Part shown: positions 8,964-53,897 of the stretch, piece after piece
Position numbering within the stretch: position 1 is the stretch's first letter
Layout: the number at the start of each line of letters is the position of its first letter
Assembly: GCA_025352365.1 (NCBI GenBank)
Contig: JANXTO010000085.1
Coordinates: forward strand, 1-60,053
Origin: Undibacterium sp.
GTDB taxonomy: Bacteria; Pseudomonadota; Gammaproteobacteria; Burkholderiales; Burkholderiaceae_D
Reading direction: 5' to 3'
Length of the DNA stretch: 60,053 nt
Translations under genes and position numbers: made by a program
The notes under the pieces: generated by a model
What the model was told of the DNA's origin: nothing
Database searches by the model: none
Seen by the model: the letters and a program-made list of their open reading frames with translations, nothing else

Positions 8964-9056
8964 AATAAAATATACTAGAGGGGTGTAATTTTTAATGTCC
9001 AATGATTATTTGCACAATAAGGTATATTTATTCACATACTCCCCTATTTTTTAATT
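8964..9056 (+). repeat. Dispersed intergenic element, copy A (architecture 2)
   Basis: ATACTAGAGGGGTGTAATTTTTAATGTCCAATGATTATTTGCACAATAAGGTATATTTATTCACATACTCCCCTATTTTTTAA; aligns by eye with the copies at 15502, 28840, 37609, 45770 and 53819. Confidence 0.75.
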
Positions 9057-9141
9057 TTTTCTTTATGGATATAAGGTAAATATTTTCAGTATCGTTGGAG
9101 GGGCGCCATACATACCGCTTCATCTGGCAACTTCCCCAATC

Positions 9142-9516
9142 TCACCGCGGGTCGCAAATTGTTTCCGCCCTGATTGCGTCATCGGTGCGCCGGAAGGACA
9201 CTACAGGCTCAAACTGTTTACTCAAGAACAAGCCTGAACTCTGATGAGTTAAAGACGTTTGCTCAGGCAGGCTATTTTCGATAATAGGACAAATTTGGAT
9301 CTCACTAGCTTGACGATCTGCCTCAATTACCACTCGTTTCAGCGGCGGTATCATCAAACTCTGCCCCTTCGATAACCAGTAATCATAGGCATCATTCTCA
9401 ATCGTAATCCACACCAAACCGCATTCGATTTGCAAGCACAGCGCCGATTCGGCAGACACAGATAACAAGCCATTTGGTGGTAGCGTCAGTAATGTATTGG
9501 CGGTGAGAATTTTCAT
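9142..9516 (-). CDS. DUF2917 domain protein
   Basis: MKILTANTLLTLPPNGLLSVSAESALCLQIECGLVWITIENDAYDYWLSKGQSLMIPPLKRVVIEA. Confidence 0.7.
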   Translation of the reverse strand: MKILTANTLLTLPPNGLLSVSAESALCLQIECGLVWITIENDAYDYWLSKGQSLMIPPLKRVVIEADRQASEIQICPIIENSLPEQTSLTHQSSGLFLSKQFEPVVSFRRTDDAIRAETICDPR

Positions 9517-9654
9517 AGCATTCCTTGCAGATTGGTGTAGGAGTTGTGCTATCCTAGCCGCAAAAACCAATACAGTACCAGTACAATAAAAACGATAATT
9601 CACGCACTGTTACGGTCTTTTTCCCGATACACCTATCCGATTGGCAGGCATCCT

Positions 9655-11163
9655 ATGATTAACGGTAGCAGGAATAGCGATACAAATGGCAGCACGAGTG
9701 GCGACAAGAATCGAGGCACAAATGTGAGCGCAATCGGAAGCACGAATCGAAGCATAATTTCGCGCGATTCTGGCGGCTCTCTGGTCGAGCAAATTGTCCG
9801 TAACGTTGCTACCCGTATCGACGACAAATTGCTACGCACCGGTGCGCGGATGCCGTCGATCCGGCAGTTTGCGGACGAACAGCGCGTCTCGCGCTTTACG
9901 GTGGTTGAGGCTTACGACCGGCTGGTCGCCAAGGGTTATCTGGAATCACGTCGCGGCTCGGGCTTTTTTGTGCGTGAGCGTGCGTCGATGATCAACAGCA
10001 ATAACGCTAATAATGCTGCAGAGGCTTTGCCATCAGGGCAACAACTCGATGTGGTGTGGCTGGTGCGGAATATGTTCCGCCAATTGCCGCCGCAAAAAAT
10101 GCCGGGCGCCGGTCTGCTGCCGCACGACTGGCTGGATGGTGAACTGGTGGCGAATGGTTTGCGTGCGATTAGTCGCCTTAATCAAAACCTGCTGCTGCAT
10201 TACGGTACGCCGCAGGGTTTTTTGCCGCTACGCCAGCAACTACAGTTAAAACTGGCTGAACTGGAAATCGCCGCAGCACCAGAACAAATCATCATGACGA
10301 CGGGTGTTACGCAGGCGCTGGATTTGGTGGCACGCGAATTTACTCGCCCCGGTGACACGATTTTTGTCGATGATCCCGCCTGGTTTTTGATGTTTGCCTC
10401 ATTTGCGATTTTGGGTGTCAAAGTGATTGGCATACCGCGCTTGCATGATGGTCCTAATGTGGTCAAGCTAGCCGAACTGGCGGCGCTGCATAAGCCCAAG
10501 CTCTATATAATTAATTCTGTCATGCATAACCCGACCTCCACGTCCCTGTCGGCGGCCAAGGCGTTTCAGGTATTGAAGACGGCAGAAGAACATGATTTTA
10601 TGGTGGTGGAAGATGATATTTACTGCGACATGCATCCCGGTCACGCGGTGCAAGCGGCGACACGTATCGCCGCCTTGGATCAATTAAATCGTGTGATTTA
10701 TCTGGGTGGATTTTCCAAAACTCTCGCTGCCAATCTGCGCGTAGGATTTATCGCCACCTCACATGAATTAGCTGTGCGCTTGTCGGACCGTAAGATGTTA
10801 TCCACGCTGACTACGACAGAGATCGGTGAGCGTGTCGTGTATAAAATTTTATCAGAAGGTCACTACCGCAAACACGTAGACCGCATCCGCGTCAAACTGG
10901 ATTCTGTACGGGACGACGTGACTAAGCGGGTAGAAAATCTTGGGATGAAAGTTGATTACCGCACACCTGCCGGCATGTTTTTGTGGACTGATACCGGCTG
11001 CGACACCAATGTACTGACCGAGAAGGCAATGGAGCAAGGTTTTCTGCTAGCACCCGGTAGCTTGTTCTCCCCCAATCAACTGCCCTCCACCAAGATGCGC
11101 ATCAACATTGCTGCGATGTCTGATCCTGATGTGTGGGCGTTTTTAGAGAAAGAAATTAAGTAA
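9655..11163 (+). CDS. MocR/PdxR-type GntR regulator with an aminotransferase-like domain
   Basis: wHTH RMPSIRQFADEQRVSRFTVVEAYDRLVAKGYLESRRGSGFFV plus AAT fold ...YLGGFSKTLAANLRVGFIA. Start placed at the ATG at 9655. Confidence 0.88.
   Translation: MINGSRNSDTNGSTSGDKNRGTNVSAIGSTNRSIISRDSGGSLVEQIVRNVATRIDDKLLRTGARMPSIRQFADEQRVSRFTVVEAYDRLVAKGYLESRRGSGFFVRERASMINSNNANNAAEALPSGQQLDVVWLVRNMFRQLPPQKMPGAGLLPHDWLDGELVANGLRAISRLNQNLLLHYGTPQGFLPLRQQLQLKLAELEIAAAPEQIIMTTGVTQALDLVAREFTRPGDTIFVDDPAWFLMFASFAILGVKVIGIPRLHDGPNVVKLAELAALHKPKLYIINSVMHNPTSTSLSAAKAFQVLKTAEEHDFMVVEDDIYCDMHPGHAVQAATRIAALDQLNRVIYLGGFSKTLAANLRVGFIATSHELAVRLSDRKMLSTLTTTEIGERVVYKILSEGHYRKHVDRIRVKLDSVRDDVTKRVENLGMKVDYRTPAGMFLWTDTGCDTNVLTEKAMEQGFLLAPGSLFSPNQLPSTKMRINIAAMSDPDVWAFLEKEIK
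9661..9756 (+). repeat. In-frame 12-bp minisatellite (8 units): NGSR/NSDT/NGST/SGDK/NRGT/NVSA/IGST/NRSI
   Basis: AACGGTAGCAGG AATAGCGATACA AATGGCAGCACG AGTGGCGACAAG AATCGAGGCACA AATGTGAGCGCA ATCGGAAGCACG AATCGAAGCATA. Confidence 0.8.
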
Positions 11164-11169
11164 TAGACC

Positions 11170-12252
11170 CTATTTCGCTGATATCCACCAGGCCTCACCT
11201 GCATGTGGCTTGATCATGCTGAGTTGCTCCCCCATTTGCGGTGTGCTGATAGGGACATTCCGCGCCTCAGCCAAGGCTGTAATACGATCAAACGGCTCAT
11301 GCCAGACATGTAGCGACAGATCAAACGTGCCGTTATGAACCGGCAGCAAATGTTTACCGCGCAAGTCAAGATGTGCCTGCAAAGTCTGCTCTGGCTGCAT
11401 GTGGACATCTGGCCACTGGTGATTGTAGGCGCCAGTTTCTATCATAGTCAGATCGAAGGGACCGAACTTATCGCCGATCTGTTTAAACCCGTCAAAATAA
11501 CCACTGTCACCACTAAAAAACAGCTTGAGATTCTGCTCGGCCTCTCCATGGGTTTCACGGATTACCCAAGACGACCAAAGAGTTTGATTGCCATCGTTGA
11601 GACCGCGACCGGAAAAATGTTGTGCTGGCGTCGCTGTCAATTCAATCCCGTCAACAGTGGTGCTTTGCCACCAATCCAATTGCTGTACTTTACTGGCTGC
11701 GATACCCCATTTAATTAAGGTATCACCCACACCCAGCGGCGTTAAAAAGTGTTCGACTTTATCGGCTAGCTGTAACACTGCAGCATAGTCCAGGTGATCA
11801 TAATGATCGTGCGACAAAATCACACCCTTGATCGGTGGCAGGTCTGCAATACTGATCGGTGGCTGATGGAAACGTTTTGGACCCATCCACTGGAACGGTG
11901 ATGCCCGCTCGGAAAATACAGGATCAGTCAGCCAAAATTCGCCACGCAGTTTCAGCAATAAAGTGGAATGCCCCAGACGAAATAAGGACTGATCCGGCGC
12001 AGCCAGCAATTGCTGATGCGTCAAAACCTGCACTGGGATTTGACCTGCCGGTATGGTGTTGGCAGGTTTATTAAAAAGGAAGGTCAAAGCGATTTGCACA
12101 GTTTTGAAAAAACTCGTCCTTTGTATTTGCACTGGATTTCTATACTTGCCATCTTCGTGCCGCAGATAGCGCATCTTGTCTTGCGTATTGTCAGCCACAT
12201 TGCTCAACACCACCTTAGTTGAGCTGTCTGCCGGGAATGTGCCAATTGCCAT
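11170..12252 (-). CDS. MBL-fold metallohydrolase (UlaG/NAPE-PLD-like)
   Basis: RLGHSTLLLKLRGEFWLTDPVF...GVILSHDHYDHLDYAAV (HxHxDH)...LFFSGDSGYFDGFKQIG. Longer ORF opens at 12297. Confidence 0.85.
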   Translation of the reverse strand: MAIGTFPADSSTKVVLSNVADNTQDKMRYLRHEDGKYRNPVQIQRTSFFKTVQIALTFLFNKPANTIPAGQIPVQVLTHQQLLAAPDQSLFRLGHSTLLLKLRGEFWLTDPVFSERASPFQWMGPKRFHQPPISIADLPPIKGVILSHDHYDHLDYAAVLQLADKVEHFLTPLGVGDTLIKWGIAASKVQQLDWWQSTTVDGIELTATPAQHFSGRGLNDGNQTLWSSWVIRETHGEAEQNLKLFFSGDSGYFDGFKQIGDKFGPFDLTMIETGAYNHQWPDVHMQPEQTLQAHLDLRGKHLLPVHNGTFDLSLHVWHEPFDRITALAEARNVPISTPQMGEQLSMIKPHAGEAWWISAK

Positions 12253-12352
12253 AATCAGATGTCCTGTAAGCAAAATAAAATCGAAAGTACCAAGCATTGC
12301 ATCGAACGGAAATTAAGGGCGAATGCCTAAACACAGCAAACATACCAAATAA

Positions 12353-12405
12353 TTACACTACACAGTGTAGTTTTAAATTCGCAAGAAGTAAACTACTTAG
12401 TGTAA
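12353..12405. promoter_or_regulatory. Probable TetR-family operator in the divergent intergenic region
   Basis: ACTACAC-A-GTGTAGT (12357-12371); outer half-sites TTACACTA (12353-12360) and TAGTGTAA (12398-12405) are exact reverse complements. Confidence 0.7.
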
Positions 12406-12457
12406 AATAATTTCTATCCCTTTATGCCCTCATTCATCTGCTCTGAACGCTAAGTCC

Positions 12458-13069
12458 ATGCCAATTCCACAACGCCTGACCGATCGCAAGCGCGAAGCAA
12501 TATTGCAAGCGGCTATTGCTGAATTCCGTACTCACGGTTTTGAAGCCACCAGCATGGATAAAATCGCCGCCAGCGCCGAGGTTTCTAAGCGCACGGTATA
12601 TAACCATTTCCCCAGCAAAGATGATCTGTTCGCCGCTATCTTATTACAGCTATGGCAAAACAGCGCCAGCCAGCGCGAGGTGGTTTATCGCACCGACATC
12701 CCCTTGCGTGATCAGCTAATCGACTTGATGCAAGAAAAAATGCAGATGCTCAACGATGAGCACTTTATCGCGTTGGCACGTGTCGCTATTGCGGCCACCA
12801 TCCACGCGCCAGACCGCGCACAAGAGATGGTCGCCAAATTAGGAGAAAAAGAAGAAGGCGTTACAGGCTGGATCAGAGCAGCACAAGTCGATGGTAAGCT
12901 TAAAGCAGTTGATCCGGCATTTGCAGCCCACCTGCTACAAGGTCAATTAAAAACCTTCGCATTCTGGCCACAAATCACCATGGGGCAAGCGCCTTTGGAT
13001 AAGGCTGCTCAAGTGCAAATCGTAGAAGCTGCGGTGGATATGTTTTTGGCTTATTTGGGTCAGTCTTAA
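12458..13069 (+). CDS. TetR/AcrR family regulator
   Basis: REAILQAAIAEFRTHGFEATSMDKIAASAEVSKRTVYNHFPSKDDLFAAIL (TetR HTH). Confidence 0.92.
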   Translation: MPIPQRLTDRKREAILQAAIAEFRTHGFEATSMDKIAASAEVSKRTVYNHFPSKDDLFAAILLQLWQNSASQREVVYRTDIPLRDQLIDLMQEKMQMLNDEHFIALARVAIAATIHAPDRAQEMVAKLGEKEEGVTGWIRAAQVDGKLKAVDPAFAAHLLQGQLKTFAFWPQITMGQAPLDKAAQVQIVEAAVDMFLAYLGQS

Positions 13070-13445
13070 AATCTTACAACAGCGTTGTTTATTAGCTCAG
13101 CAGCCAGTACGAGCCGCCCACTCACATCAACGCAATCAAATTGTGTGATAAATTCATATCTTCGTTTTATCGTCCTTGCCATTTCATTTTTATCGATCAC
13201 TCAAAGCTACCCGTGCAAGCCACATTCAATACGATGAAAAACGCCTCTACTTCCATCTGCGCATCCACAACAGCGCGCCGGTTGTTTGTCGTATTCAGCT
13301 TGTCATATACACACATATGCAGTGACAAGCTTTGTTGTCGCTGTTGATCCTGATCTAGTTACAACTACTCCAAAAATTCACCGTTTTTTAGCTGTAGCAA
13401 TCACGGTGTACGTCTGCTGTTTATTTTCGATTTTTTATACTCTCT

Positions 13446-14828
13446 ATGCATCTCTGTCTCTATGACAACTGGGAGCGTCAGCTTCGCCAATTTACCCCAC
13501 TGCGCCAGGATTGGGTTGGTCTGTATTGCTGCGGACCTACCGTGTATGACTATGCGCATATCGGTAATTTACGCACTTATTTGTTTGAAGATATTTTACG
13601 TCGCACCTTAGAATTTAACGGTCACCAAGTCCGTCATGTCATCAACATCACTGACGTCGGCCATCTGGTGTCCGATGCGGATGATGGCGAAGACAAAATG
13701 GAAAAAGGCAGCCGCAAAGCGGGAGAATCTGCCTGGGACATTGCGGAAAAATTTACTAGCGCGTTCAAAGCCGACTTGCTCAGCCTGAATATGCTGCCCC
13801 CTACCATCTGGTGCAAGGCAACTGATCATATCGCTGAGCAAATCGACTTTATCGCCACCATAGAACAAAAAGGCTACACCTACACCACCAGCGACGGCGT
13901 ATATTTCGACACATCCAAACAAAATGATTACGGCTACCTGGCACGACTCAATCGAGATGGTATTGAGGCGGGAATCCGTGTTGAACTGGGTGAAAAAAAA
14001 CACCCTACCGATTTTGCGCTATGGAAATTCAGTCCGGCAAATGAACAGTGTCAGATGGAATGGGATAGCCCTTGGGGACGTGGATTTCCAGGCTGGCATA
14101 TTGAGTGCTCTGCGATGGCTAGCAAATATCTGGAACCGTGGTTTGACATCCATTGCGGCGGAGAAGATCACATCGCGATTCATCACAGCAACGAGATTGC
14201 ACAGAACCAAACATGCCATGGCACTCGTCTTGCTAATCATTGGATGCATGGCTATTTTTTGCAAATCGATGCAGGAAAAATGTCTAAATCTAGCGGCGAT
14301 TTTTTGCGTCTGCAAACTCTGATTGACCAGGAGATTGATCCGCTGGCATACCGGTTTTTGTGCTTGTCGGCACACTACCGCAGCCAGATGAATTTTAACT
14401 GGGATGCATTGGAGGCAGCTCAAACAGCATTGGGCAGATTACGTGAGACTTACTTTGCGTTACCTTAAGGTGGCGCGGCTGACAGCAACTACGTGTCACG
14501 CTTCCAGACTGAAATCAATCAGGACCTGAATCTCCCCAAAGCACTTGTCATCCTTTGGGAAGTTCTAAAATCAGATTTGAATGACGCAGATAAAAAAGCG
14601 ACTCTCGATCAATTTGATCTTGTCTTAGGATTAGGATTGGCAGATTGGAAGCCAACAGTACTCACCATACCCGCCGAGGTAACTGCGCTGGCAGAGCAAC
14701 GTCAAATTGCCCGTAGCACAAAGAACTGGGCAGAGGCAGATCGACTACGTGCAGCCATACATAGATTAGGGTATGAAGTAGAAGATAAAGCAGATGGGAT
14801 GCAGATAAAACCTGGAACAGGTAGTTGA
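13446..14828 (+). pseudogene. Cysteinyl-tRNA synthetase-like gene interrupted by an in-frame TAA at 14466-14468
   Basis: ORF 13446..14468 has [19 protein letters not shown] (HIGN) and KMSKSSGDF (KMSKS). After TAA the same frame continues GGAADSNYVSRFQTEINQDLNLPKALVILWEVLKSDL...LGLGLADW, the C-terminal part of the family. Confidence 0.75.
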
Positions 14829-14927
14829 GCGCTCGTCAGTATAATTAAGTAGTTGATTCCATTGACTCAGGTCAGTATTCTCACTATCACCGTTCTGGTG
14901 AGAGTGCTACAACGGATTAATTTCGAT

Positions 14928-15416
14928 ATGACCATGCACCTTGTTGCGACCAAGCGCCCGCCCTCAGAAAAATCAGATTTGCTAAGGTTTATCCGGCAAG
15001 ATCACTCAGTTTGTGAAATTGAAATGCCACGCCAAGGTGTGCTGCCGCATGATCTGGTTCATTTTGTGGTTGAAACCGGGCTAAAACTCAGTGACGGTTT
15101 TTTAAGTATGGTGGCGCAAGGTGCCGATGCACAGTTTGTCATGGAGCTGACCCACGACACTCAGCGCCGGGATGTTGAACGGGGCGCAATGCAAGCCGAG
15201 GCGATTGTTGAGGCATTGCAGACACAACTCTGGAGCGGTAATTTTGATCACGACGCGTTTGCTTATGGACTGCAAACGGCGACTGGGGCACGCAATATTG
15301 AGGCGCCAGCAGCACCGGCAGAGAGTCTGGGGCGGGCTCTGTTCCAGCAAGCAGTGGGGCTAAACGCGATATGGTCGCAGATTAAACCATATGAAAAACT
15401 GGAACTCCGGTTTTAA
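14928..15416 (+). CDS. Conserved-looking hypothetical protein
   Basis: Open frame MTMHLVATKRPPSEKSDLLRFIRQDHSVCEIEMPRQGVLPHDLVHFVVETGLKLSDGFLSMVAQG; no family recognised. Confidence 0.6.
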   Translation: MTMHLVATKRPPSEKSDLLRFIRQDHSVCEIEMPRQGVLPHDLVHFVVETGLKLSDGFLSMVAQGADAQFVMELTHDTQRRDVERGAMQAEAIVEALQTQLWSGNFDHDAFAYGLQTATGARNIEAPAAPAESLGRALFQQAVGLNAIWSQIKPYEKLELRF

Positions 15417-15501
15417 ACAAATCGCCACGACATCCTACGTTCAGCATCTATTTTTGTCTTTTCCATCTAAACTCCCCAATTTGCTTAATTAGAACAATAA
15501 T

Positions 15502-15590
15502 TAAAAAAATGGGGAGTATTTTTAATTATCCAGAGAATAATTGGACAATAAGGCTAATTTACCTTGTACTACTACCCAGTATATAAATTA
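15502..15590 (-). repeat. Dispersed intergenic element, copy B (architecture 2)
   Basis: Reverse complement: ATACTGGGTAGTAGTACAAGGTAAATTAGCCTTATTGTCCAATTATTCTCTGGATAATTAAAAATACTCCCCATTTTTTTAA. Confidence 0.75.
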
Positions 15591-15788
15591 GCCGCAATCA
15601 ACATCTTGAAATATCCCAACTTAGCCGCATAACTGCCAAGCAAAATCTCTATGGATTTCATCAAATCGGGACTTGCACAAAATCGCTCTGACAAAATCGG
15701 TGTGAGCAGGTCGTCAGACGATGCTGTGTGAGGTCGCCAGGGTAATTTTTTAAAATTCTACAGTCATAAAAAATATTAAGAGGGAATT

Positions 15789-17708
15789 ATGTCCGACCAA
15801 AAACAAACAATGGGCTTTCAAGCTGAAGTCAAACAATTGCTGCAATTGATGATCCACTCGCTGTATTCCAACAAGGAAATTTTCTTGCGCGAATTGATCT
15901 CTAACGCATCTGATGCCGCTGATAAACTGCGTTTTGAAGCGATCAACAATGCCGCCTTGTATGAAAGTGATCCTGAACTCAAGATCAAAGTCAGCTTCGA
16001 TAAAGCTGCACGCACCATCACCATCGCCGACAACGGCATCGGTATGACACGCGAAGAAGCGATTGCGCATTTAGGTACCATTGCCAAGTCAGGTACAAAA
16101 GAATTCTTTGGCAAACTGTCTGGCGACCAGCAAAAAGATGCCGCCATGATCGGCCAATTTGGTGTGGGTTTCTACTCTGGCTTTATCGTTGCGGACAAAA
16201 TCACGGTTGAATCACGTCGTGCTGGCACTGCCGCCGACGCTGGCGTACGCTGGGAATCTGAAGGCGCTGGCGACTTCAGCGTAGAAGATATTACTAAAGC
16301 CGATCGCGGTAGCTCAATCACTTTGCATCTACGCGAGGGTGAAGATGATTTTCTCTCTTCATGGAAATTAAAGTCAGTGATTCGTACTTACTCCGACCAT
16401 ATCTCTTTGCCGATCTTAATGCAAAAAGAAGAGTGGGACGAAGAGAAAAAAGAACAAGTCACTAAAGACGAACTAGAGACAATCAATCAGGCCAGCGCCT
16501 TGTGGGCACGCAGCAAGAGCGACATCACGCCTGAGCAATATGATGAGTTCTATAAACACATTTCACACGATTACAGCGCCCCGCTGACCCACACGCATAA
16601 CCGTGTTGAAGGTCGCAGCGAATACACGCAATTGCTGTACATCCCTGCCCGTGCACCGTTCGACATGTGGGACCGCAACAAACGCGGCGGTATCAAGTTA
16701 TATGTCAAACGCGTCTTCATCATGGACGATGCCGAACAGTTGATGCCGGTCTATCTGCGCTTTGTTAAAGGTGTGATTGATTCCAATGACTTGCCACTGA
16801 ATGTCTCGCGTGAAATTTTGCAGGAAAGTCGTGACATCAAAGCTATTCGTGAAGGATCGACCAAGCGCGTATTAGGCATGCTGGAAGATTTGGCAAATGC
16901 CGAAGGTGATGATGATTCACAAGCGAAGAAAGATAAATACGCTAGCTTCTGGACCGAGTTTGGTCAGGTACTCAAAGAAGGTATAGGCGAAGATGCGGGC
17001 AACAAAGAACGTATCGCTAAACTGTTACGTTTTGCGTCTACCCACAACGACAGTGATGCACAGACGGTATCTTTAGCTGATTATCTGAGCCGGGTTAAAG
17101 ACGGTCAGGAAAAGATTTACTACGTTACTGCCGACAATTACGGCGCTGCGAAAAACAGTCCTCATTTAGAAATTTTCCGTAAAAAGGGTGTGGAAGTTCT
17201 ATTGCTGACTGACCGCGTTGATGAATGGATGCTGTCCTTCTTAAGTGATTTTGAAGGTAAAGAATTAGTCTCCGTTGCCAAAGGCGACCTGAACCTTGGT
17301 ACGCTAGAAGATGAAGCCGAGAAAAAACAGCACGAAGAGACCGAAACGCAGTTCAAGGATCTGGTTGAGAAGATGAAAACCGCGCTGGCAGATAAAGCCA
17401 AAGATGTACGCGTGACTTTCCGTCTGACCGACTCCCCTGCCTGTCTGGTAGCGGACGACAACGAGTTATCCGGCAACTTGATGCGCATGCTGAAAGCAGC
17501 AGGCCAGGCTGCACCGGAATCAAAACCGATTCTTGAAGTCAATCCAGATCATCCGTTAGTACAACGTTTAAAGTACGAAGAGAAGAAGTTTGACGACTGG
17601 GCCAATATCCTGTTTGATCAGGCAATGCTGGCAGAGGGCGGATCACTGGCAGATCCAAGCAGTTTTGTGAAACGTCTCAATGAAATGCTGTTGAACGTGG
17701 CAGCTTAG
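15789..17708 (+). CDS. htpG: Molecular chaperone HtpG (Hsp90)
   Basis: [44 protein letters not shown]...[31 protein letters not shown]. Confidence 0.98.
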
Positions 17709-17745
17709 GTTTTTACCTCAGGTTTTTACCTCAAGTTTTTACGTC
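17707..17745. repeat. 13-bp tandem repeat, 3 units, overlapping the htpG stop codon
   Basis: AGGTTTTTACCTC AGGTTTTTACCTC AAGTTTTTACGTC. Confidence 0.9.
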
Positions 17746-17796
17746 AGATGACTATTTGATTGGTTTCAGTCAACCACTTCTACAAAAGCAGCCCAT

Positions 17797-17832
17797 AACA
17801 AGCCCGCCAATTTGGTGGGCTTGTTGTTTTGT
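17797..17832 (+). terminator. Intrinsic terminator-like hairpin downstream of htpG
   Basis: AACAAGCCCGCCAATTTGGTGGGCTTGTTGTTTT. Confidence 0.75.
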
Positions 17833-17979
17833 GCTGAGCATGCGTGAAATGTAAAGAAACTATAAAGCTTGAAAGACCAAGCGCCCCTCGTTTTAATTTG
17901 TAATTTCTCGCTACAAGCTCCGCAAAAAATGAGCATTACAGGTAATATCACTGCATCGCAACAAAAACTCACAATTGCC

Positions 17980-19113: not shown

Positions 19114-19234
19114 TTTGATCTTTAGGATAGCCGTTTAAAGAAAGAGTAAAGCAGTGCGCATGGCCTACCCTAATGGATATGCATGCTCATAAATCGTTTC
19201 TTGAATTGCTGTCCGCCCTCCCCTTTTGTTATTC

Positions 19235-19693
19235 TCAGTGAACGAGATTCTTGCTCATAAATACGCTCAAAGGATCGTCGCGATAATCGCCAAACCGACC
19301 ACACACCACATATCCAGCCTGCGTATAAAGGCGTAATGCCTCGGTCTGAAGCGGGCCGGTTTCCAGCATCACTTTCCGGTATTCTGCTTTACGGGCTGCG
19401 GCTTCTAGCAAATTCAGTAATTGTTTCGCCAAACCCTGCCCGCGCCGATCGGGATGCACATACACGCGCTTGATCTCAGCATATTCTGATGCCAGAACAA
19501 GCGCACCACAAGCGACCGCGCGCTGCTCCGAATCACGGGCAACAGCACACATGAGTTGCTGTGCCGAGAGCGCGGCCAGGTCAAGCGAATACACGCTTTC
19601 TACCGGGTACAGACTATGTTGATATGCGTCCAACTCAGCAATCAAAGCCAGCACGTCTGCCTGATCTGGCGATTCCATATTAATAGTAATCAT
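19235..19693 (-). CDS. GNAT family N-acetyltransferase
   Basis: AEIKRVYVHPDRRGQGLAKQLLNLLEAAARKAEYRKVMLETGPLQTEALRLYTQAGYVVC. Confidence 0.88.
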   Translation of the reverse strand: MITINMESPDQADVLALIAELDAYQHSLYPVESVYSLDLAALSAQQLMCAVARDSEQRAVACGALVLASEYAEIKRVYVHPDRRGQGLAKQLLNLLEAAARKAEYRKVMLETGPLQTEALRLYTQAGYVVCGRFGDYRDDPLSVFMSKNLVH

Positions 19694-28706: not shown

Positions 28707-28839
28707 ATAGTGAACTGACGCAAAACCATCCTAGCTGAGTTGCAAGGCCTATCCGGAACAATCTTGCGTCAGTTTTAATAATGCTTAGCGAATATAATTA
28801 TCAAACAAATTATTCATTAACTCAGCAATAGAGCCATAC

Positions 28840-28919
28840 ATACTCCATGTAGGTATATTTTGATCGTCAATATACTTACTGATCAGTGCGGCATATTTAT
28901 AAAAAATAATGGGGAGTAT
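28840..28919 (+). repeat. Dispersed intergenic element, copy C (architecture 1)
   Basis: ATACTCCATGTAGGTATATTTTGATCGTCAATATACTTACTGATCAGTGCGGCATATTTATAAAAAATAATGGGGAGTAT. Confidence 0.75.
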
Positions 28920-29080
28920 ATTTATTCTCTACAGGATGTATGGTAAAAATATCGCACTGGATCCTTGAAGTTTTGAGTATTTCTCAGCTCCGGATCGCGG
29001 AAAATACTGGTAACAAATACGCTAAACGAATAACCAAAATAAATAGAAGTTCATAGCAATATCATCGCCAAGGAATCCCA

Positions 29081-37302: not shown

Positions 37303-37608
37303 TAGAAAATTGCGTCATACTGCTTAACTGATTGCATGTATGGCGCATCTTTTTAAATAGAAAACTGATATTTTATTTTTGATTATGCTGGGAGAAGCGG
37401 TAACGCTCCCAGCATTACTCTGAGCTAGTAAGCACTGCCCTCTCAAGCACTTCAACTCCCTGCATCAAACAACGATATTTTTTGGTAACGTAGCTACCAA
37501 CGCACCATATCTGATCTGACTTCTGATATTTATTCGAGCCTCAACACATGATTGGCGCACCGGCAAGGTGGACTGTTCTTTTGATAATTGAAAAAATATC
37601 GATTTAAT

Positions 37609-37686
37609 ATACCCCCCCTATTTTTATGTAATATCGCTTATTATCCAATGAATCTATGGACAAATAAATATACTAATTAGGAGTAT
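37609..37686 (-). repeat. Dispersed intergenic element, copy D (architecture 1)
   Basis: Reverse complement: ATACTCCTAATTAGTATATTTATTTGTCCATAGATTCATTGGATAATAAGCGATATTACATAAAAATAGGGGGGGTAT. Confidence 0.75.
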
Positions 37687-37780
37687 CTACAATTGCCGTG
37701 ATTAATAGCCTAGCTTTAATGAGATAAATATCAGCTATCTTGCCCATAAATAGAATTTTAAGATCATCGACAGTACAAAA

Positions 37781-43397: not shown

Positions 43398-43508
43398 CGT
43401 TTATCCATCAACACATAACAGCTACAATAGTTGCAAATCACTTGCAAAGAAATTATAAAAAAATTGCAAAAAAACTGAAAATAAGATCGCAGCAAAAAAG
43501 TCCCTGAG

Positions 43509-43728
43509 CTAAGTTAAGCTAAGTTAAGCTATCGTTAGCTATGATCGCATCACTCATTACTCGTTACTCGTTACTATTGGATAGCGATCTTATTGCTCTG
43601 ATGACTGGCTCTGATGACTTTCTACCAAGCCTATTTAAAATGATTGCCAGAATACAGGCAAACCTTGCCAGCAAACAAAAATTTTGTGGAATAATTTGTC
43701 TACATGGTACCTAATTAGTACCTAATTT
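43509..43728. repeat. Cluster of four different short tandem duplications upstream of parE
   Basis: CTAAGTTAAG x2 (43509-43528); TTACTCG x2 plus partial third (43557-); GCTCTGATGACT[G/T] x2 (43595-43620); GTACCTAATT[A/T] x2 (43707-43728). Confidence 0.85.
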
Positions 43729-43762
43729 CCAACATCAGCGACAACCAACACGTATTTATTGC

Positions 43763-45754: not shown

Positions 45755-45769
45755 ATTTCCATCTTACAC

Positions 45770-45862
45770 AATAAAATATACTACCCATAAGTATATTTTA
45801 TTATCCATATAATCATTGGACATTAAGCACTAAATTGGCTGATACTCCCCTATTTTTATAAT
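45770..45862 (+). repeat. Dispersed intergenic element, copy E (architecture 2), between parE and parC
   Basis: ATACTACCCATAAGTATATTTTATTATCCATATAATCATTGGACATTAAGCACTAAATTGGCTGATACTCCCCTATTTTTATAA. Confidence 0.78.
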
Positions 45863-45884
45863 TTAATCGACGAATTGAAGCACC

Positions 45885-48215
45885 ATGAGCGAACAAGCGA
45901 ATTTATTTGATCAGGCACCTGATGACGACAAAGGCGGTGGCGATGGCAGAGAAACGCTGACGCTGGCCAGCTTTGCCGAACGCGCCTATCTTGACTATGC
46001 GATCTCCGTCGTCAAAGGCCGCGCCTTGCCGGATGTGTGCGATGGTCAAAAACCGGTACAGCGCCGTATCTTGTTTTCGATGAATGAGCTGGGTCTGAAC
46101 TCCAGCGCCAAACCACGTAAGTCCGCGACCGTCGTCGGTGACGTGTTAGGTAAGCTGCATCCCCATGGCGATCAGTCCGTGTACGACGCGATGGTACGAA
46201 TGGCGCAGGATTTTTCGCTACGCTATCCTCTGATCGATGGTCAGGGTAACTTCGGCTCACGCGATGGCGATGGTGCAGCAGCGATGCGATATACCGAGGC
46301 ACGCTTGACGCCGATCTCGCGCTTGTTGATGGATGAGATCAACCTTGGCACAGTCGACTTCCAACCCAACTACGATGGTTCGTTTGAAGAGCCAAGCTTG
46401 CTGCCGGGTCGTTTGCCGTTCGTCTTGTTAAACGGTGCATCCGGTATTGCCGTCGGTATGGCGACCGAAATCCCGTCACACAATCTGACCGAAGTCGCCA
46501 AAGCCGCCGTAGCGCTGATCCGCAACCCGGCTATGCAACATGCTGAATTAATGAGCATGATTCCAGGTCCGGACTTCCCAAGTGGCGGTCAAATCATTAC
46601 CCCCGCCGCTGCGATTGCCGACATCTACGCAGCAGGTCGTGGCAGCATGAAGGTACGCGCTTGCTGGAAGATTGAAGAACTGGCTCGTGGTCAATGGCAA
46701 GCCGTGATTACCGAATTGCCGCACGGTGTTTCTTCCCAAAAAATTCTGGAAGAAATCGAGGAAATCACTAACCCGAAAATCAAGTTAGGCAAAAAAACTC
46801 TCACGCCAGACCAAGCCTCGCTGAAGCAAGTTGTATTGTCCATGCTAGATGCGGTGCGCGACGAATCCGGTCGGGAGGCTGCCGTACGTCTGGTGCTGGA
46901 GCCGAAATCCAAAAATCAGGATCAGGCGGAGTTTATGCAGATGTTGCTGGCGCATACCTCACTGGAAACCTCGACCTCCATCAATCTGGTGATGATCGGT
47001 GGCGACGGGCGTCCGCGTCAAAAAGGCTTGCTCGATATTCTCAAGGAGTGGATCACTTTCCGCTTCGCGACAGTCACCCGCCGCACTCAGTTCAAGCTGA
47101 AAAAAGTCGATGATCGCATCCATATTTTAGAAGGCCGTGAAGCCGTTCTGTTAAATATCGACAAGGTCATCAAGATCATCCGTGAGTCGGATGAGCCTAA
47201 ACCAGCCTTGATGAACGCATTTAAATTATCCGACCGTCAGGCCGAAGATATTTTAGAAATCCGTCTGCGTCAGCTAGCACGATTAGAGGCCATCAAAATC
47301 CAGCAAGAATTGACCGAATTGCGCAACGAAAAAACCAGTCTGCAAGACCTGCTAGACAATCCAGCCTCGATGAAGAAATGCATCATCAAAGAAATCGAAG
47401 CTGATACCAAACAATTTGGTGACGCACGCCGTACCTTGATCGAAGAAGCCGCACGCGCTTCTGCAGAACAAAAAGTGATTGACGAGCCCGTCACCGTCGT
47501 CATCTCAGAAAAAGGTTGGGTGCGCGCACGCACAGGTCATGGTCATGACAATGCGCAGTTCACGTTTAAAGCGAGTGACAGTCTGTACAACACCTTTGAG
47601 TGCCGGACCATCGATCAATTGCTGGTGGTTGGCTCCAACGGCCGGGTTTATTCCGTCCCAGTTGCAGCACTACCCGGCGCGCGTGGCGATGGCGTGCCAA
47701 TCACTACGTTGATCGATCTTGCCAGCGGCACAAAAATCCTGCACTACTTTGCTGGCACAGCCGATTCAACCCTGCTGCTAGCCTCCAGTGCCGGTTACGG
47801 CTTCACCGCCAAAGCTAGTGACATGGTTGGCCGCATGAAAGCGGGTAAAGCCTTTATGACGATCGACGACGGCGATGAACCATTAAAGCCAACCTTGGTC
47901 GCAGAAGACGCCAGCGCGATTGCCTGTTTATCAGAAAAAGGTCGCTTGCTGGTATTCGGCCTGGCAGAAATCAAGCAACTCGCCAGCGGCGGCAGAGGCG
48001 TGATTTTGATGGAGTTGGAAGCCAAAGAAAAACTATTAGCAGCGCAAGCAATTAGCCAGAAAGGTGTACGTGTGGCAGGGATAGGACGTGCAGCCAAACC
48101 GCAAGAAGTCGTATTAAGTGCGTCAGCCTTGAGTATCCACATCAACAAACGCGCTCGCAAAGGTAAGGCGCTGGAATCCAAGCTCAAACCAAGTGGGATA
48201 TTTAGTGTGGGTTGA
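45885..48215 (+). CDS. parC: DNA topoisomerase IV subunit A
   Basis: [95 protein letters not shown]. Confidence 0.96.
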
Positions 48216-48234
48216 GTGGATAGAGAATAGTTGT

Positions 48235-48260
48235 ATCTGATATTTTTAAAAATATCAGAT
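48235..48260. repeat. 26-bp perfect palindrome after parC
   Basis: ATCTGATATTTTT|AAAAATATCAGAT. Confidence 0.92.
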
Positions 48261-48262
48261 TA

Positions 48263-48330
48263 CATCGTCCAATAAAAATGCGGCTTACCAAAGGAAAATG
48301 CTTGGTAAGCCGCATTTTTATTGGACGATG
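48263..48330. terminator. 68-bp perfect stem-loop (29-bp arms, 10-nt loop) after parC
   Basis: CATCGTCCAATAAAAATGCGGCTTACCAA-AGGAAAATGC-TTGGTAAGCCGCATTTTTATTGGACGATG. Confidence 0.85.
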
Positions 48331-48404
48331 CTAAAAGGAATTTCTAAAGAAATTTATAAAATGACTTAAACAGAGGTATTACATTTTAAGTAGTTATCGC
48401 GGAG

Positions 48405-48775
48405 CGCGGCATTGCAAGCACCCTCACCCCCGATCCCTCTCCCGCATGCAGGAGAGGGACGCTTGAAAGGCTTTAGATTGCGGACAACGAGGGAATTGAA
48501 TTTGAATTTGAATTTGAATTTGAATTTGCTATTGATTTTGACTTGAAGTTCCGCTTTGGCGCTGCCGTTTGTAGAAGGCAAAAATGGATAAGAAAGCTTC
48601 GTTGTCTGAGCGAAGCGAGTTTCGAACTTTTCCCATTTTTGTCTTTTACAAACGGGAACCCCGAAGGGGCAGCGACTTCGCGGTCGCCTTCTTTTGCTTA
48701 TTTTTCTTGGCGAAGCAAGAAAAGTGAGTAGCCGCCGGTCTACCACCGGCCTGCAATCTCAAATGAACGGTGTAG
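48405..48775. repeat. Composite repeat region: REP-like hairpin, GAATTT microsatellite, long imperfect inverted repeats
   Basis: CCCTCACCCCCGATCCCTCTCCCGCATGCAGGAGAGGGA; (GAATTT)5 at 48498-48527; CGTTTGTAGAAGGCAAAAATGG...CCCATTTTTGTCTTTTACAAACGGG; CTTATTTTTCTTGGCGAAGCAAGAAAAGTGAG. Confidence 0.7.
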
Positions 48776-48819
48776 GCATGACTGCCTAATACCAGATACC
48801 CTCAGACTACGTCAAAAAA

Positions 48820-50472
48820 TCAAATTTTCGCCAACTCAATCTGATTCCGCCCACCCTGCTTAGCCCGATACAATGCCGCATCAGCCACATCAAATAACTC
48901 ATCAGCATCCGTGGTTAATTCCAAATCAGCCACACCCGCTGAGAACGTAACCGCGAAATCGCCCTGCTCTGCATGCTGGTCAATTTTGCCAAAAGCAATC
49001 CTGATCTGATCCAATACTCTCCGGGCGACGACCGCGCTAGTACCCGGGAAAATGATGACAAACTCCTCACCACCATAACGCCCGACAATGTCGCTACGGC
49101 GCAAACGCTGCCGCAGAAGGCGAGACAAAGTGCGTAATACCTGATCGCCAACCGGATGGCCATAGGTGTCGTTGACGTGTTTAAAATTATCCAGATCGAT
49201 CATCGCCAAAGCCAGTGGTGCGCGGTTGCGGCTGGCGATAGATATCTCTGCGCCCAGTTCTTCTTTGATGGCAGTATGGTTGTACAAACCCGTCAAGCCG
49301 TCACGCATAATCAATGCGCGTAACAGGCGATACCGCTCTGCCCGGCTGGATAACGCGGAGACTAAAAATTCTGGGGTAATCGGTTTAGTGAGGAAATCAT
49401 CGGCGCCTGCCTGTACCGCATCTAATTGTTTACCCATGTCGTTTTCGCTGGACAGAAAAACGATAGGAATATCCAGATAAGAATTATCTTGCCGTATCAT
49501 TTTGGATAATTCCACACCGCTGCAAAGTGGCATGTATACATCCAGCAATAATAGCTCTGGCCTGAAATCTGTCATTACGCCCAAAATCTGGCTAGGGTCG
49601 TTAAGCAAGCGCACGCTCATCCCGGCATTGCGCAAAACTGCACTGTAATACTCGGCAGTGACGACATCATCATCAATAATCAGTACGCGGTAGCCTTTGG
49701 GCTCTTCGCGTCCGACTAAAGCATCGATTCTTTCGCTCAGGGCGACGATATCGACGGGCTTGGTGAAGTAGCCATCGCCACCGGCACGCACGGCTTGCAG
49801 GCGGTTTTCAAAACTACTGGATTGAGATACAAAGATGGTAGGAATACTTAAACGGCCAAGACGTTTGATGCGGGCGATCTCTTCTGCGCCAGCGGTTTTT
49901 CCGTCTTCTGAGCCAAGTTCGATGACCACGATGTCGGGTCGTCTAGTGGCGATGGATACCGCCAGCGATTTTAGCTGGTCTATGAGTACCACCTCGTAAC
50001 CAAATTGCTCTAACTGAACCAAGATGGATTGGGTAATCTCATTGTCGTCATCGACCAGATAAATCAGACGAGAGGCATCTTTGTCGCTGTTTTTTTCCAG
50101 ATAATCAACGGCTTGTACCGTAGCGCCTTTGCTTTTGGCGTTGAGCAAAGCCGTGACAAAATATTCTCTTAGCTCAGCGGCATAGAGGTCTAAATCTGCC
50201 AATGACCAGACACCCTCTGAAAATAAGGGTTTAAGACGTATTTCAAATTCGCGTGCCTGCAACCCCATTTCCGCAAAGCCGAATGTGCCAGCAGATCCTG
50301 CCATAGTGTGTAACAGCCGATGCAATATGGTCAGTGCCTCTTTATCATCGGGCATCGCTAAAAAATGGGCAAGTGCCTCCTCCATCTCTTGCATCTTCAA
50401 AGGCAATTTTTCTAAAAACAGATTTTCTAGTGCTCGCAGTTTTTCCTGGAGACTGTCATTTTTTTCTGTCAT
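48820..50472 (-). CDS. HPt-REC-REC-GGDEF diguanylate cyclase
   Basis: HPt LLHTMAGSAGTFGFAEMG; receivers VYLVDDDNEIT-type and RVLIIDDDVVTAEYYSAVLRNAGM...LLLLDVYMP; GGDEF IVGRYGGEEFVIIFPGT with RRSD five residues upstream (RxxD I-site position). Confidence 0.92.
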   Translation of the reverse strand: MTEKNDSLQEKLRALENLFLEKLPLKMQEMEEALAHFLAMPDDKEALTILHRLLHTMAGSAGTFGFAEMGLQAREFEIRLKPLFSEGVWSLADLDLYAAELREYFVTALLNAKSKGATVQAVDYLEKNSDKDASRLIYLVDDDNEITQSILVQLEQFGYEVVLIDQLKSLAVSIATRRPDIVVIELGSEDGKTAGAEEIARIKRLGRLSIPTIFVSQSSSFENRLQAVRAGGDGYFTKPVDIVALSERIDALVGREEPKGYRVLIIDDDVVTAEYYSAVLRNAGMSVRLLNDPSQILGVMTDFRPELLLLDVYMPLCSGVELSKMIRQDNSYLDIPIVFLSSENDMGKQLDAVQAGADDFLTKPITPEFLVSALSSRAERYRLLRALIMRDGLTGLYNHTAIKEELGAEISIASRNRAPLALAMIDLDNFKHVNDTYGHPVGDQVLRTLSRLLRQRLRRSDIVGRYGGEEFVIIFPGTSAVVARRVLDQIRIAFGKIDQHAEQGDFAVTFSAGVADLELTTDADELFDVADAALYRAKQGGRNQIELAKI

Positions 50473-50883
50473 TTAATTTCCTTTGCTCCCACTATTTGAG
50501 CTATTCCACAGAGCGCGCACTTGCTCCGATAATTCCATAGGATCGAAAGGTTTGGCAATGACGCCGATAGCGCCTAAAGATTTATAGTAATCAAGCTCAA
50601 CCGATTGCACTTTGGCCGTCATAAAAATAACCGGTGTCTGGGAGGTAGAAGCAAGCTTGCGTAATTCGGCCAATGTGGTTGGCCCATCCATACTTGGCAT
50701 CATCACATCGAGTAAGAGCAAGTCTGGCTCGGCACCCGTCTCTATCGCCTGCAACGCTGCGCTGCCGGAGCTGCACGTAATCAGGCTAAAGCCACCGACA
50801 ACTTCCAGCGCGATTTGGGCTACTGTTTGGATGTCCTGGTCGTCCTCGACGTACAGTATTTTATTCAGAGGTTTTTCACTCAT
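50473..50883 (-). CDS. Single-domain response regulator
   Basis: NKILYVEDDQDIQTVAQIALEVVGGFSLITCSSGSAALQAIETGAEPDLLLLDVMMPSMDGPTTLAELR...VIFMTAKV...GVIAKPFDP. Confidence 0.92.
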   Translation of the reverse strand: MSEKPLNKILYVEDDQDIQTVAQIALEVVGGFSLITCSSGSAALQAIETGAEPDLLLLDVMMPSMDGPTTLAELRKLASTSQTPVIFMTAKVQSVELDYYKSLGAIGVIAKPFDPMELSEQVRALWNSSNSGSKGN

Positions 50884-51078
50884 CGCAATTCCTTTTGCTT
50901 TTTATAGCGAAAAAATCGTTACCACTATGAAATTAAAGTCCTGACTAAAAATCCTACTGCGTATGTCGCTTTTCATCCATAGCGGCGCAAGGCTAAAAAT
51001 AGCAATTCCATTTAATCCAAGCTTACCAGAAGTATTATAAAAATTGCTCAAGAGTTGCGTTGCCGAAACGCCTGAATG

Positions 51079-51138
51079 TAACTCAAGGCAACTTAATACA
51101 ACTTATTGCAACTGAATACGACTGGATGGAGCTGGTTA
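51079..51138. repeat. Degenerate 10-bp tandem repeat, about 6 units
   Basis: TAACTCAAGG CAACTTAATA CAACTTATTG CAACTGAATA CGACTGGATG GAGCTGGTTA. Confidence 0.65.
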
Positions 51139-51162
51139 AGCCTAAGTAAGGCTAGGCACAAT

Positions 51163-53715
51163 TTATTGAATAACAGGTAATTCAAAGAAAAACTCAGTTG
51201 GCTCATTCGGCTTGCTATAAAAATCAATCCGTCCCTGATGAGCTTCGATGATTGTTTTACAAATACTTAAGCCCAAACCTGTACCGCCTTTTTGCCTGGT
51301 ATTTGAAGAATCTGCTTGGGCAAACTTTTCAAAAATATGTCCCTTAAATGCCTCTGGTACGCCTTTGCCGTTATCTATTACCGACAACCTCAGGCTCGCT
51401 GGATTCGCTGGGATGGTTGGGTTGACAGAATCCGCCAATAACGCCTGCAAGCGTATCGTTACGACGCCACCTTTAGGAGAGAATTTACAGGCATTAGATA
51501 ACAAATTGATCATCACTTGCAATAGTCTGTCGGCATCAACCAGCACTGTCATGGGCGTCTGCTCAGACTGCAACTCTAGCTTTACCTGATACAACTCGGC
51601 ATATGCCTGGGTTGCTGCAATGGCGTTGGCGACCAGTTCTTGCATGACATGCGGGCGCAGATCAAATGTCATATTCCCAGATTCCATTTTAGCAATGTCG
51701 AGAATATCGTTGATCAGCCTTACCAATCGCTCGCAATTATTTTTAGCAATCTCAAACAAGTCATGCGCGCGGGGCGATATTTCCATCAATTTGCCAGAAG
51801 ACAGCAAGCCAAGCGACCCACGAATAGAAGTCAGCGGTGTCCGCAACTCATGCGATACGGTAGAAATGAATTCGTTCTTCATTTTATCCATCCGTTTTTG
51901 CTCAGACAGATCGTAGGCAATCCCTAAAAAACCAACGATCGTATCTTGTTTATTTTGATGCTTATTTTGATGCTCACTTAGGCTCAGGTTTTGGTATGAG
52001 TTGACGTTTGAGGTAATGTTTGAGTTGATGTTTGGGTTGATGTTGGCGTCACTATTTTGGTCGCCAAAAAGCGCTGCAAGCGATAACATGACTGGCAAAC
52101 GAGATCCATCTTTGCGGATATACGTCCACTCCTGGTGGTCGTAACCACCTTGTCTGACCTTCGCTGCAAATGCCTCAAAGCCTGGGGCGATGGTTTGATT
52201 TAATTCCAGGCTAGACTGTGCCGCTTTGGCGATGATCTCATTCATGTCATGGAAGATTGCCGGACTATGAATACCAACCACCTCGTCTGCAGAATAGCCT
52301 AATATTTTCTCTGCACCGGCACTAAACATCTGAATAGTGCCTTCGGTGTCGGTGGCAATAATCGAGAAGTTAGCCACATCCAAAATCGCATTATGCAAGG
52401 CACTGGCATTGCTTAAACGCAGATTCAGTGACTCTAATAAGCGTTGATTTTCTATTAATGCTTGCTCATTGCGCCGGGCTTGAGTGATGTCGGACGCGAC
52501 TATGCACAAGCCATATATTTTGCCGTCACGATCAAGCAAAGGTGAGCGTACTGAATGGAAATGGACATCTCCGTCGGATGAAGGAAAAATACTATCTATC
52601 GCCAGCGACTCTGCACTCTGGAACACCAACAAATCCTCTTCCCGCGCTTTTTTGGCGAACTCAGAAGGGTAAATATCTTCCATCGTTTTTCCCAAAATAT
52701 CGATGCCAGACATTTTGATCAGCTCTTCATATTTCCGGTTCACAAACAGGTAACGACTGTTTAGATCACGTACCGCAATCAGAGAACTGGTGCTATTCAT
52801 CACTGACAGTAAAAGGTCTTCACCTACCCGCATTTTTTGCTCGGACGCCAGACGTTGACTGATATCAATGCCAATCACGCAGACTCCATAAATCTCGCCG
52901 CTGCTGCGGTACAAAGGGGTGCGGATTATCTGATAAATATGCTCGCCATCTTCTTGTACAACGACGGATTGCGACTCCAGAACGCTACCCGATTCGATCA
53001 CTTTACGATCTGCGTTGTGGCTAATCTTGGCCGCATCAGTCGGGAATAAGTCAAACACAGTCTTGCCGATTAAATCTTTGCCTAAACGTTGATGAACCAG
53101 TTCATACTCTTTATTGACGAATAAATAGCGCCCATGATTATCACGCACCGACAAGGTAGAACTCATGCTATCCATCACCGACTGCAATAAGCTGAACTCA
53201 TGATCTTGTTGTCGTTTTAGCTGGGCTAGATCCAGCGCGTTCATCTCCGACTCGACCATCGCGGCTAAGTCTTTCAGCATCCGTTGGTCGCTTGCACCGA
53301 ATTGACGTGCCTGGCGATCAATCACACAGAGTGTCCCAATCTTATGCCCACCCGGCCCTTTAATTGGCATGCCGGCATAAAAACGGATATCCGGCTCGCC
53401 AGTGACTAAAGGATTATCGGCAAAGCGCGGATCTAGCAAGGTGTTTTCGACCACAAAAACTGATTCTTGCAAAATGGCATGTCCGCAAAAAGAAATCTTG
53501 CGCGGGGTCTCGGTCTCGGCCAGTCCTTGCGACGACTTAAACCATTGCCGCTGATAATCGACCAGAGAAATCAGCACAATCGGCGCATCGAAATGACACT
53601 GAGTTATTCGGGTAATACGATCAAACCGCTCTTCTGCAGGCGTGTCTAATACTTCTAACGAGTGTAGATCCGCAAGGCGCTGCTCTTCATCCGCTGCTAG
53701 CGTAGCTTCTAACAT
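51163..53715 (-). CDS. GAF and multi-PAS sensor histidine kinase
   Basis: GAF RITRITQCHFDAPIVLISLVDYQRQWFKSSQGL; three PAS units; NEFISTVSHELRTPLTSIRGSLGLLSSG; QKGGTGLGLSICKTIIEAHQGRIDFYS. Confidence 0.93.
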   Translation of the reverse strand: MLEATLAADEEQRLADLHSLEVLDTPAEERFDRITRITQCHFDAPIVLISLVDYQRQWFKSSQGLAETETPRKISFCGHAILQESVFVVENTLLDPRFADNPLVTGEPDIRFYAGMPIKGPGGHKIGTLCVIDRQARQFGASDQRMLKDLAAMVESEMNALDLAQLKRQQDHEFSLLQSVMDSMSSTLSVRDNHGRYLFVNKEYELVHQRLGKDLIGKTVFDLFPTDAAKISHNADRKVIESGSVLESQSVVVQEDGEHIYQIIRTPLYRSSGEIYGVCVIGIDISQRLASEQKMRVGEDLLLSVMNSTSSLIAVRDLNSRYLFVNRKYEELIKMSGIDILGKTMEDIYPSEFAKKAREEDLLVFQSAESLAIDSIFPSSDGDVHFHSVRSPLLDRDGKIYGLCIVASDITQARRNEQALIENQRLLESLNLRLSNASALHNAILDVANFSIIATDTEGTIQMFSAGAEKILGYSADEVVGIHSPAIFHDMNEIIAKAAQSSLELNQTIAPGFEAFAAKVRQGGYDHQEWTYIRKDGSRLPVMLSLAALFGDQNSDANINPNINSNITSNVNSYQNLSLSEHQNKHQNKQDTIVGFLGIAYDLSEQKRMDKMKNEFISTVSHELRTPLTSIRGSLGLLSSGKLMEISPRAHDLFEIAKNNCERLVRLINDILDIAKMESGNMTFDLRPHVMQELVANAIAATQAYAELYQVKLELQSEQTPMTVLVDADRLLQVMINLLSNACKFSPKGGVVTIRLQALLADSVNPTIPANPASLRLSVIDNGKGVPEAFKGHIFEKFAQADSSNTRQKGGTGLGLSICKTIIEAHQGRIDFYSKPNEPTEFFFELPVIQ
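51950..52044 (-). repeat. In-frame 12-bp minisatellites in the kinase linker: NINP/NINS/NITS/NVNS and HQNK/HQNK
   Basis: + strand: TGAGTTGACGTT TGAGGTAATGTT TGAGTTGATGTT TGGGTTGATGTT (51997-52044) and TTATTTTGATGC x2 (51950-51973). Confidence 0.85.
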
Positions 53716-53818
53716 AGTGCTCCGTTCTGATTAAAGATCCAGCACTGCGCGTGTTTACAATGGGTTTGGTGCGATCAGGGCATTACGATTAACAATCAGC
53801 TATTAACATTAAATTCAT

Positions 53819-53897
53819 ATACTCCCCCTGATTTTTAATAAAATCGCCTTATTGAGCAGGAATTATATGGACAATAAAATATACCCACTGGGAGTAT
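53819..53897 (-). repeat. Dispersed intergenic element, copy F (architecture 1)
   Basis: Reverse complement: ATACTCCCAGTGGGTATATTTTATTGTCCATATAATTCCTGCTCAATAAGGCGATTTTATTAAAAATCAGGGGGAGTAT. Confidence 0.78.

Follow-up and report, generated by a model that had tools for sequence, protein, structure and literature searches.

The 60,053-nucleotide stretch analysed here (the window: contig JANXTO010000085.1 of the Undibacterium sp. assembly GCA_025352365.1, positions 1 to 60,053) carries six copies of an intergenic element of about 85-90 bp that recurs throughout the genome. Computationally, we find that this element has a three-part architecture, is conserved at orthologous positions and co-occurs with a divergent paralog of the CsoR/RcnR family. 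The most probable overall explanation is that the element is a composite site for this paralog, and motif and co-occurrence make binding of the element by the paralog very likely. More tentatively, a CsoR/RcnR-family protein may here have departed from metal sensing to become a sequence-specific chromosome-organising or transcription-insulating factor, with some 500 composite sites at gene boundaries, roughly every 10 kb, co-evolving with it species by species.

A three-part element repeated across the genome

All six copies that the sequence-only reading had placed in the window were recovered by a profile made from 23 further copies of this genome (alignment A1), with E-values of 2e-17 to 4e-5 and scores of 19-59 bits compared to a top score of 7.8 bits in 800 kb of Markov-shuffled sequence. 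None of the six lies inside a called gene, the gene calls being simple and our own. The copies are:

Copy A, 8972-9054, + strand: left box 8972-8988, centre 8995-9018, inverted right module 9036-9054; profile match 8964-9032 (E 4e-5, 19.3 bits); upstream of a lysE-like gene; orthologous copy in the sister species G015 at 379780.
Copy B, 15503-15586, + strand: the two modules are inverted or swapped, with the GGGGAGTAT module at 15503-15519, the centre at 15526-15551 and the ATACT-type module at 15566-15586; profile match 15515-15561 (E 2e-7, 26.5 bits); between an unassigned open reading frame and htpG; G015 ortholog at 373234.
Copy C, 28835-28924, + strand: left box 28840-28856, right module 28900-28921; profile match 28835-28924 (E 6e-15, 50.9 bits); flanked by genes for a type II secretion ATPase and a MASE1/CHASE kinase; G015 ortholog at 295929.
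Copy D, 37604-37691, - strand: left box 37670-37686, centre 37641-37664, right module 37607-37626; profile match 37604-37691 (E 3e-15, 52.0 bits); between convergent TonB-receptor and isocitrate/isopropylmalate dehydrogenase genes; G015 ortholog at 287064.
Copy E, 45778-45861, + strand: left box 45778-45794, centre 45798-45826, inverted right module 45842-45861; profile match 45771-45830 (E 5e-13, 44.9 bits); between parE and parC.
Copy F, 53814-53898, - strand: left box 53881-53897, centre 53849-53877, right module 53817-53837; profile match 53814-53898 (E 2e-17, 59.0 bits); upstream of a GAF/PAS kinase gene; G015 ortholog at 270773.

Whole-genome sequences were sampled in part. The profile search of this genome (4.02 Mb assembly) returned at least 150 copies, all with E below 1e-15. 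In G015, whose DNA is about 95% identical to the window across most of its length, 83 copies lie in 800 kb, or one per 9.6 kb, which extrapolates to about 490 on the whole 4.71 Mb chromosome if the remainder is alike. Both the six positions and the excess over shuffled background are borne out, and the pattern is also found in U. aquatile, U. rivi, U. griseum, U. oligocarboniphilum and others.

The element consists of a left box, a central palindrome and a right module, with the consensus AAATATACTCCC-N4-AGTATATTTTATTGTCCATATAATCATTGGACAATAAGGCATATTT-N-TAAAAATARGGGGAGTATAT in the 23-copy alignment. The earlier description of related pieces shared over about 80 bp holds as to the pieces; its outline is replaced by a slightly longer three-part plan in which some modules are inverted. 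The left box reads ATACT-N6/7-AGTAT with a C/G tract of 6-7 inside, degenerate in many copies of this genome and G015, and its helix 1 pairs at 97.8% in 37 sequences. The right module, AAAAATA-GGGG-AGTAT, terminates in GGGGAGTAT. Two of the window copies, A and E, carry it inverted, as do about a dozen of the 83 copies in G015. The centre-to-centre spacing of the two modules is 61.5-63.5 bp in 6/6 window copies, flipped modules included, which corresponds to six turns of B-DNA. In U. aquatile and U. rivi, GGGAGTAT and ATACTCCC are also found in everted order, mostly 54 bp apart, which fits modules flipping in place. Flips at constant spacing would not be expected of a transposon end, but would be of a site that a protein contacts from a single face of the helix.

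The central sequence is species-specific (GTCCA..TGGAC here, GCGCA..TGCGC in one metagenome-assembled genome, GCCC.. in U. aquatile), and for this reason a search with the exact core beyond the species gave zero matches. The two arms of the palindrome change in concert across species. Covariation over left box and centre is 0.142 compared to 0.089 +/- 0.013 for shuffled alignments (0/500 as high) and 0.046-0.065 when slid, with nearly all covarying changes within the centre. We considered an RNA element and rejected it: the own-species fold (alifold) is weak at -2.9 kcal/mol, Rfam gives no match in the window and the single-module inversions favour duplex DNA sites, though the centre covaries.

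Two other structures were seen alongside the element. A 52-bp inverted repeat directly downstream of parC (48240-48353; arms 81% complementary, 10-base gap) is perhaps a terminator, and the end of one contig, folded back upon itself around the left box of an element (L002, 1-238), is probably an assembly artefact.

Operator likeness of the left box

A type-1 CsoR/RcnR operator is defined by AT-rich inverted repeats, spaced 6-9 bp, that flank one G/C tract of 3-8 bp (PMC3902906). The RcnR operator, TACT-G6-N-AGTA, occurs twice in tandem (PMC3902906; PMC7055735) and that of FrmR carries ATAC/GTAT (PMC5146963). With its ATACT-N6/7-AGTAT repeats and C/G tract, the left box fits the type-1 definition and is predicted to be bound by a CsoR-family protein. 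The U. aquatile left box, ATACTCCCCCCAGTAT, is the RcnR-type TACT-G6-N-AGTA motif itself.

An element-only genus profile gave two weak matches (L399 and L400) in genomes lacking the paralog, both just upstream of RcnR-type PF02583 genes. The matched operator sequences, ATACTGCCCCCCAGTATATTT and ATACTCCCCCCTAGTATATTTTT, each lie within ~20 bp of the start codon. These stray matches form an unplanned control indicating that, in its left half, the element is a genuine CsoR/RcnR-family operator. A resemblance to RcnR/CsoR/FrmR-class operators, which the sequence-only reading had offered as a loose alternative, gains support from these matches, from the left-box motif and from the distribution of the paralog described below.

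Co-occurrence of the element with a CsoR-family paralog

The match of the left box to the RcnR-type motif led us to search for a partner protein among PF02583 members across the genus. These are of a strong type (about 80 bits) and a weak type (50-62 bits). The strong type does not follow the distribution of the element and was discarded as partner. The weak-type paralog, conversely, is present in 22/22 genomes with elements and in 0/14 without (36 Undibacterium genomes). For eight fresh genomes outcomes were predicted in advance and six forecasts were correct, with elements in G064, G065 and G066 and none in G060, G061 and G062; two were wrong. Over 44 genomes, elements are found in 25/26 paralog-bearing genomes compared to 1/18 others (concordance 42/44; Fisher 4.6e-10, kinship ignored), and 16/16 genomes with more than 10 matches carry the paralog; profile training drew on some of these genomes, G004 being the only low-copy one among them, and on none of the negatives. 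An untrained left-box pattern, ATACTCCCN{0,5}AGTAT, occurs at 725 places in the 26 paralog-bearing genomes and at 3 in the other 18, with 0-1 occurrences per genome for the reversed-pattern control.

We extended the survey to 246 genomes of the family, where the paralog is present in 72, spread over 10 of 44 genera. All 14 family genomes with at least 5 element matches have the paralog, including three other genera (g37, g65 and g66), in which the elements follow the same plan with centres of their own, e.g. CCGCATTAAATATATGCGG in g37. The scan of related genomes proposed with the sequence-only reading accordingly finds arrays in Undibacterium and three further genera. In a parE tree, the species that lack both paralog and elements fall in three places: G012 by G013/G030 (support 99), G002 by G014/G016 (94) and G005 by G028/G034 (62). 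Such a distribution suggests that both were lost together three times, or less often if gains are permitted as well.

The paralog of this genome is encoded outside the window (G000:C266:13397-13708). Its 104-residue product matches PF02583 at 59.1 bits (cut-off 22.8, E 6e-16) and scores far short of the cut-off for every NCBIfam subfamily, RcnR, FrmR and RicR included (best RicR, 33.7 of 175). The AlphaFold model (pLDDT, the predicted local distance difference test, 82) has the three-helix CsoR fold, and sequence and fold matches in the PDB are CsoR, InrS, CstR and FrmR (Foldseek E 5e-3, probability 1.00). All aligned paralogs carry an RLXR-type motif in helix 1 (RLAR followed by V/I-EGQ), a motif with a role in DNA binding (PMC3902906). 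The X-position Cys is present in all aligned paralogs but G003, and the Y-position (His60 of FrmR) is Ser or Ala in nearly all, as read by eye from the alignment. Judged from its sequence and fold, the paralog is a member of the CsoR/RcnR/FrmR family whose incomplete set of sensor ligands leaves metal or formaldehyde sensing unsupported. Its gene neighbours, which lack systematic annotation, vary among species, and we noticed none for efflux or detoxification. Autoregulation was rejected as no element was found adjoining the gene. The most divergent paralog (G003, about 50% identity) is accompanied by a drifted box, ATACCCCCGGGGGTAT, a single case that fits divergence in step with co-evolution.

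Isolated element-like sites also occur. In low-copy Undibacterium with 6 Mb genomes (L076, L078-L081), one conserved site lies between a SIS-domain gene and a sugar ATP-binding cassette (ABC) transporter binding-protein gene, possibly an ancestral target of the paralog. Genus g53 (L396, L398, L401, L403, L404; 1501-1582) has one conserved element-like site per genome, CATACTCC...ATACTTGTAGGAGTATG, located upstream of lepA in L396 and L401, the two with genes read; the paralog is present there, with no array. Ramlibacter sp. H39-3-26 has three pattern matches (L089, L191, L195), and L089, the one read, has an unrelated centre.

Genomic placement

In G015, 82/83 elements are intergenic. Their gaps are 49 tandem, 24 convergent and 9 divergent, compared to 185, 76 and 94 available gaps of at least 100 bp, a depletion from divergent gaps (p 9e-4). 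Within tandem gaps, elements lie at a median of 74 bp from the 3' end of the upstream gene and 172 bp from the next start, and their orientation relative to the genes is random (25 vs 24). A position upstream of a start codon, which the sequence-only reading noted for five of the six copies, is not what the elements have in common. Spacing along the chromosome is evener than under random gap choice (coefficient of variation 0.71 vs 0.94, p 0.002), with 5 neighbours less than 3 kb apart compared to 19.5 under random choice, and the best 69 sites are distributed along the entire chromosome without an evident gap. Each datum is modest; together with the lower share of strong intrinsic terminators at element-bearing gene ends, given below, they point to a boundary role rather than promoter control.

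Orthologous persistence and constraint

All six window copies have counterparts in G015; no clean empty site was seen, and the flanks are AT-rich. The parE-parC site (copy E) is also occupied in U. griseum, U. oligocarboniphilum, U. rivi, U. aquatile and G003, each time by an element of the species' own type, and its right module is inverted in 7/7 species including this one. Two more elements near the paralog gene are apparently common to U. griseum, U. oligocarboniphilum and U. aquatile, one of them also to U. rivi. In 13 orthologous elements of U. aquatile and U. rivi the divergence is 4.5%, compared to 26% for adjacent non-coding DNA (chi-square p 6e-37, positions taken as independent). 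From these comparisons the array appears not to have been mobile in recent time.

A model and its alternatives

The left box would serve as a type-1 CsoR/RcnR operator and the right module as a half-degenerate second operator whose G-tract may face either direction. Because the modules share one face of the helix six turns apart, we infer that two tetramers bind the same DNA face and would wrap or bridge ~85 bp, in the manner suggested for RcnR on tandem operators (wrapping as mentioned in PMC5146963, which cites Iwig and Chivers 2009). The missing Y-position ligand and the lack of a noticed efflux or detoxification neighbour suggest a largely constitutive DNA binder. Intergenic sites near 3' ends, rare in divergent gaps and about one per 10 kb, suggest in turn chromosome-wide architecture, or an RNA-polymerase roadblock between transcription units, and not the control of a single pathway; we put this role at somewhat below even chances.

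Binding, wrapping and role are deductions from the computed features. Several observations weigh against this model. The two wrong forecasts were G067, which has the paralog and no site, and G063, which has one site and no paralog; this lone G063 site (L395), between purE and purK, is possibly a relic. By this profile 58/72 paralog-bearing family genomes are without multi-copy elements, so the paralog does not imply an array; in these genomes it probably has a small regulon or sites beyond the reach of the profile, and in some the consensus sequences may have drifted. Even spacing is not significant in U. aquatile and U. rivi, where the samples were smaller (G034, G028). The deficit of strong intrinsic terminators at element-bearing gene ends is modest (8.6% vs 20.5% at -8 kcal/mol, p=0.01, one of four thresholds applied), with no difference at -4 or -6. 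Between this genome and G015 constraint is clear in the left box only (3.6% vs about 8% (8.1%) in the flank, p=0.02). Finally, the model does not account for the central palindrome, which may bind a second protein.

Among other explanations, an ordinary large regulon, in which a signal-responsive repressor or activator controls hundreds of promoters, is the one we take most seriously, while regarding it as unlikely. CsoR-family proteins are repressors, and the low-copy species retain one site before the sugar ABC transporter gene or lepA, as a regulon would have it; the depletion from divergent gaps, the proximity to upstream 3' ends and the random orientation are not those of promoter sites. 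Much the same placement, at 3' ends and in convergent gaps, would suit repeats of the repetitive extragenic palindromic (REP) or bacterial interspersed mosaic element (BIME) kind that protect mRNA 3' ends or bind gyrase, with a similar intergenic location and copy number and a correlation with the paralog arising from shared ancestry. We consider this very improbable given the weak RNA structure within the species, the operator in the left box and the three separate parE-tree positions of species without paralog and elements.

Equally improbable in our view is a non-autonomous transposon resembling a miniature inverted-repeat transposable element (MITE), mobilised by a transposase in trans and with the operator-like ends as terminal repeats, although the sequence-only reading had favoured a MITE-like or mobile processing element. 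High copy number and species-specific sequence speak for it, as do the ends of class I copies, which form an inverted repeat TATACTCC...GGAGTATA; such terminal repeats are confined to class I. The right module is found facing either way with its spacing unchanged, the parE-parC copy keeps its site and class in seven species, U. aquatile and U. rivi elements are better conserved than their flanks, and arrays track the CsoR paralog, being absent where it is absent. The related full-length insertion sequence that had been sought did not appear either: long ATACTCCC..GGGAGTAT pairs 0.3-3 kb apart are missing from 2 Mb, bar two chance-like pairs. Module flips, orthologous persistence and the missing parental insertion sequence led us to set the MITE aside and to retain the composite CsoR-family site.

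Relation to known systems

CsoR/RcnR proteins are known as local repressors acting on one or a few operators. Within the literature accessible to us, we found no paper that describes repeats of this kind in Undibacterium or a nucleoid protein from the CsoR family. If one paralog does serve hundreds of sites, this would be a new route from metal sensor to global DNA-organising protein. Otherwise similar species that lack both protein and sites would serve as natural knock-outs for the function of the array, and orthologous sites drifting together would offer a model for genome-scale protein-DNA co-evolution.

One close counterpart is the E. coli RcnR system, which has the same protein fold and Pfam family, a G/C tract flanked by TACT and AGTA, and paired sites in each operator. 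It differs in acting at one locus rather than hundreds, with sites 19 bp apart rather than 63 bp with a palindrome between, and at an exporter promoter, whereas the Undibacterium sites are mostly at intergenic 3' ends and the sensor ligand set is incomplete. Enterobacterial REP/BIME repeats are likewise short, palindromic and intergenic, number in the hundreds and stay clear of divergent promoters. We noticed no GTAG-hairpin REP unit in our element, the REP-associated tyrosine transposase (RAYT) not having been searched for, and duplex operator modules, fixed helical phasing, single-module flips and tracking of a CsoR paralog set it apart from them. SlmA, Noc and MatP are chromosome-wide systems in which one small DNA-binding protein acts on many dispersed cognate sites. 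The element described here shares that plan and differs from them in the protein family and in the best 69 G015 sites, which leave no obvious chromosomal gap.
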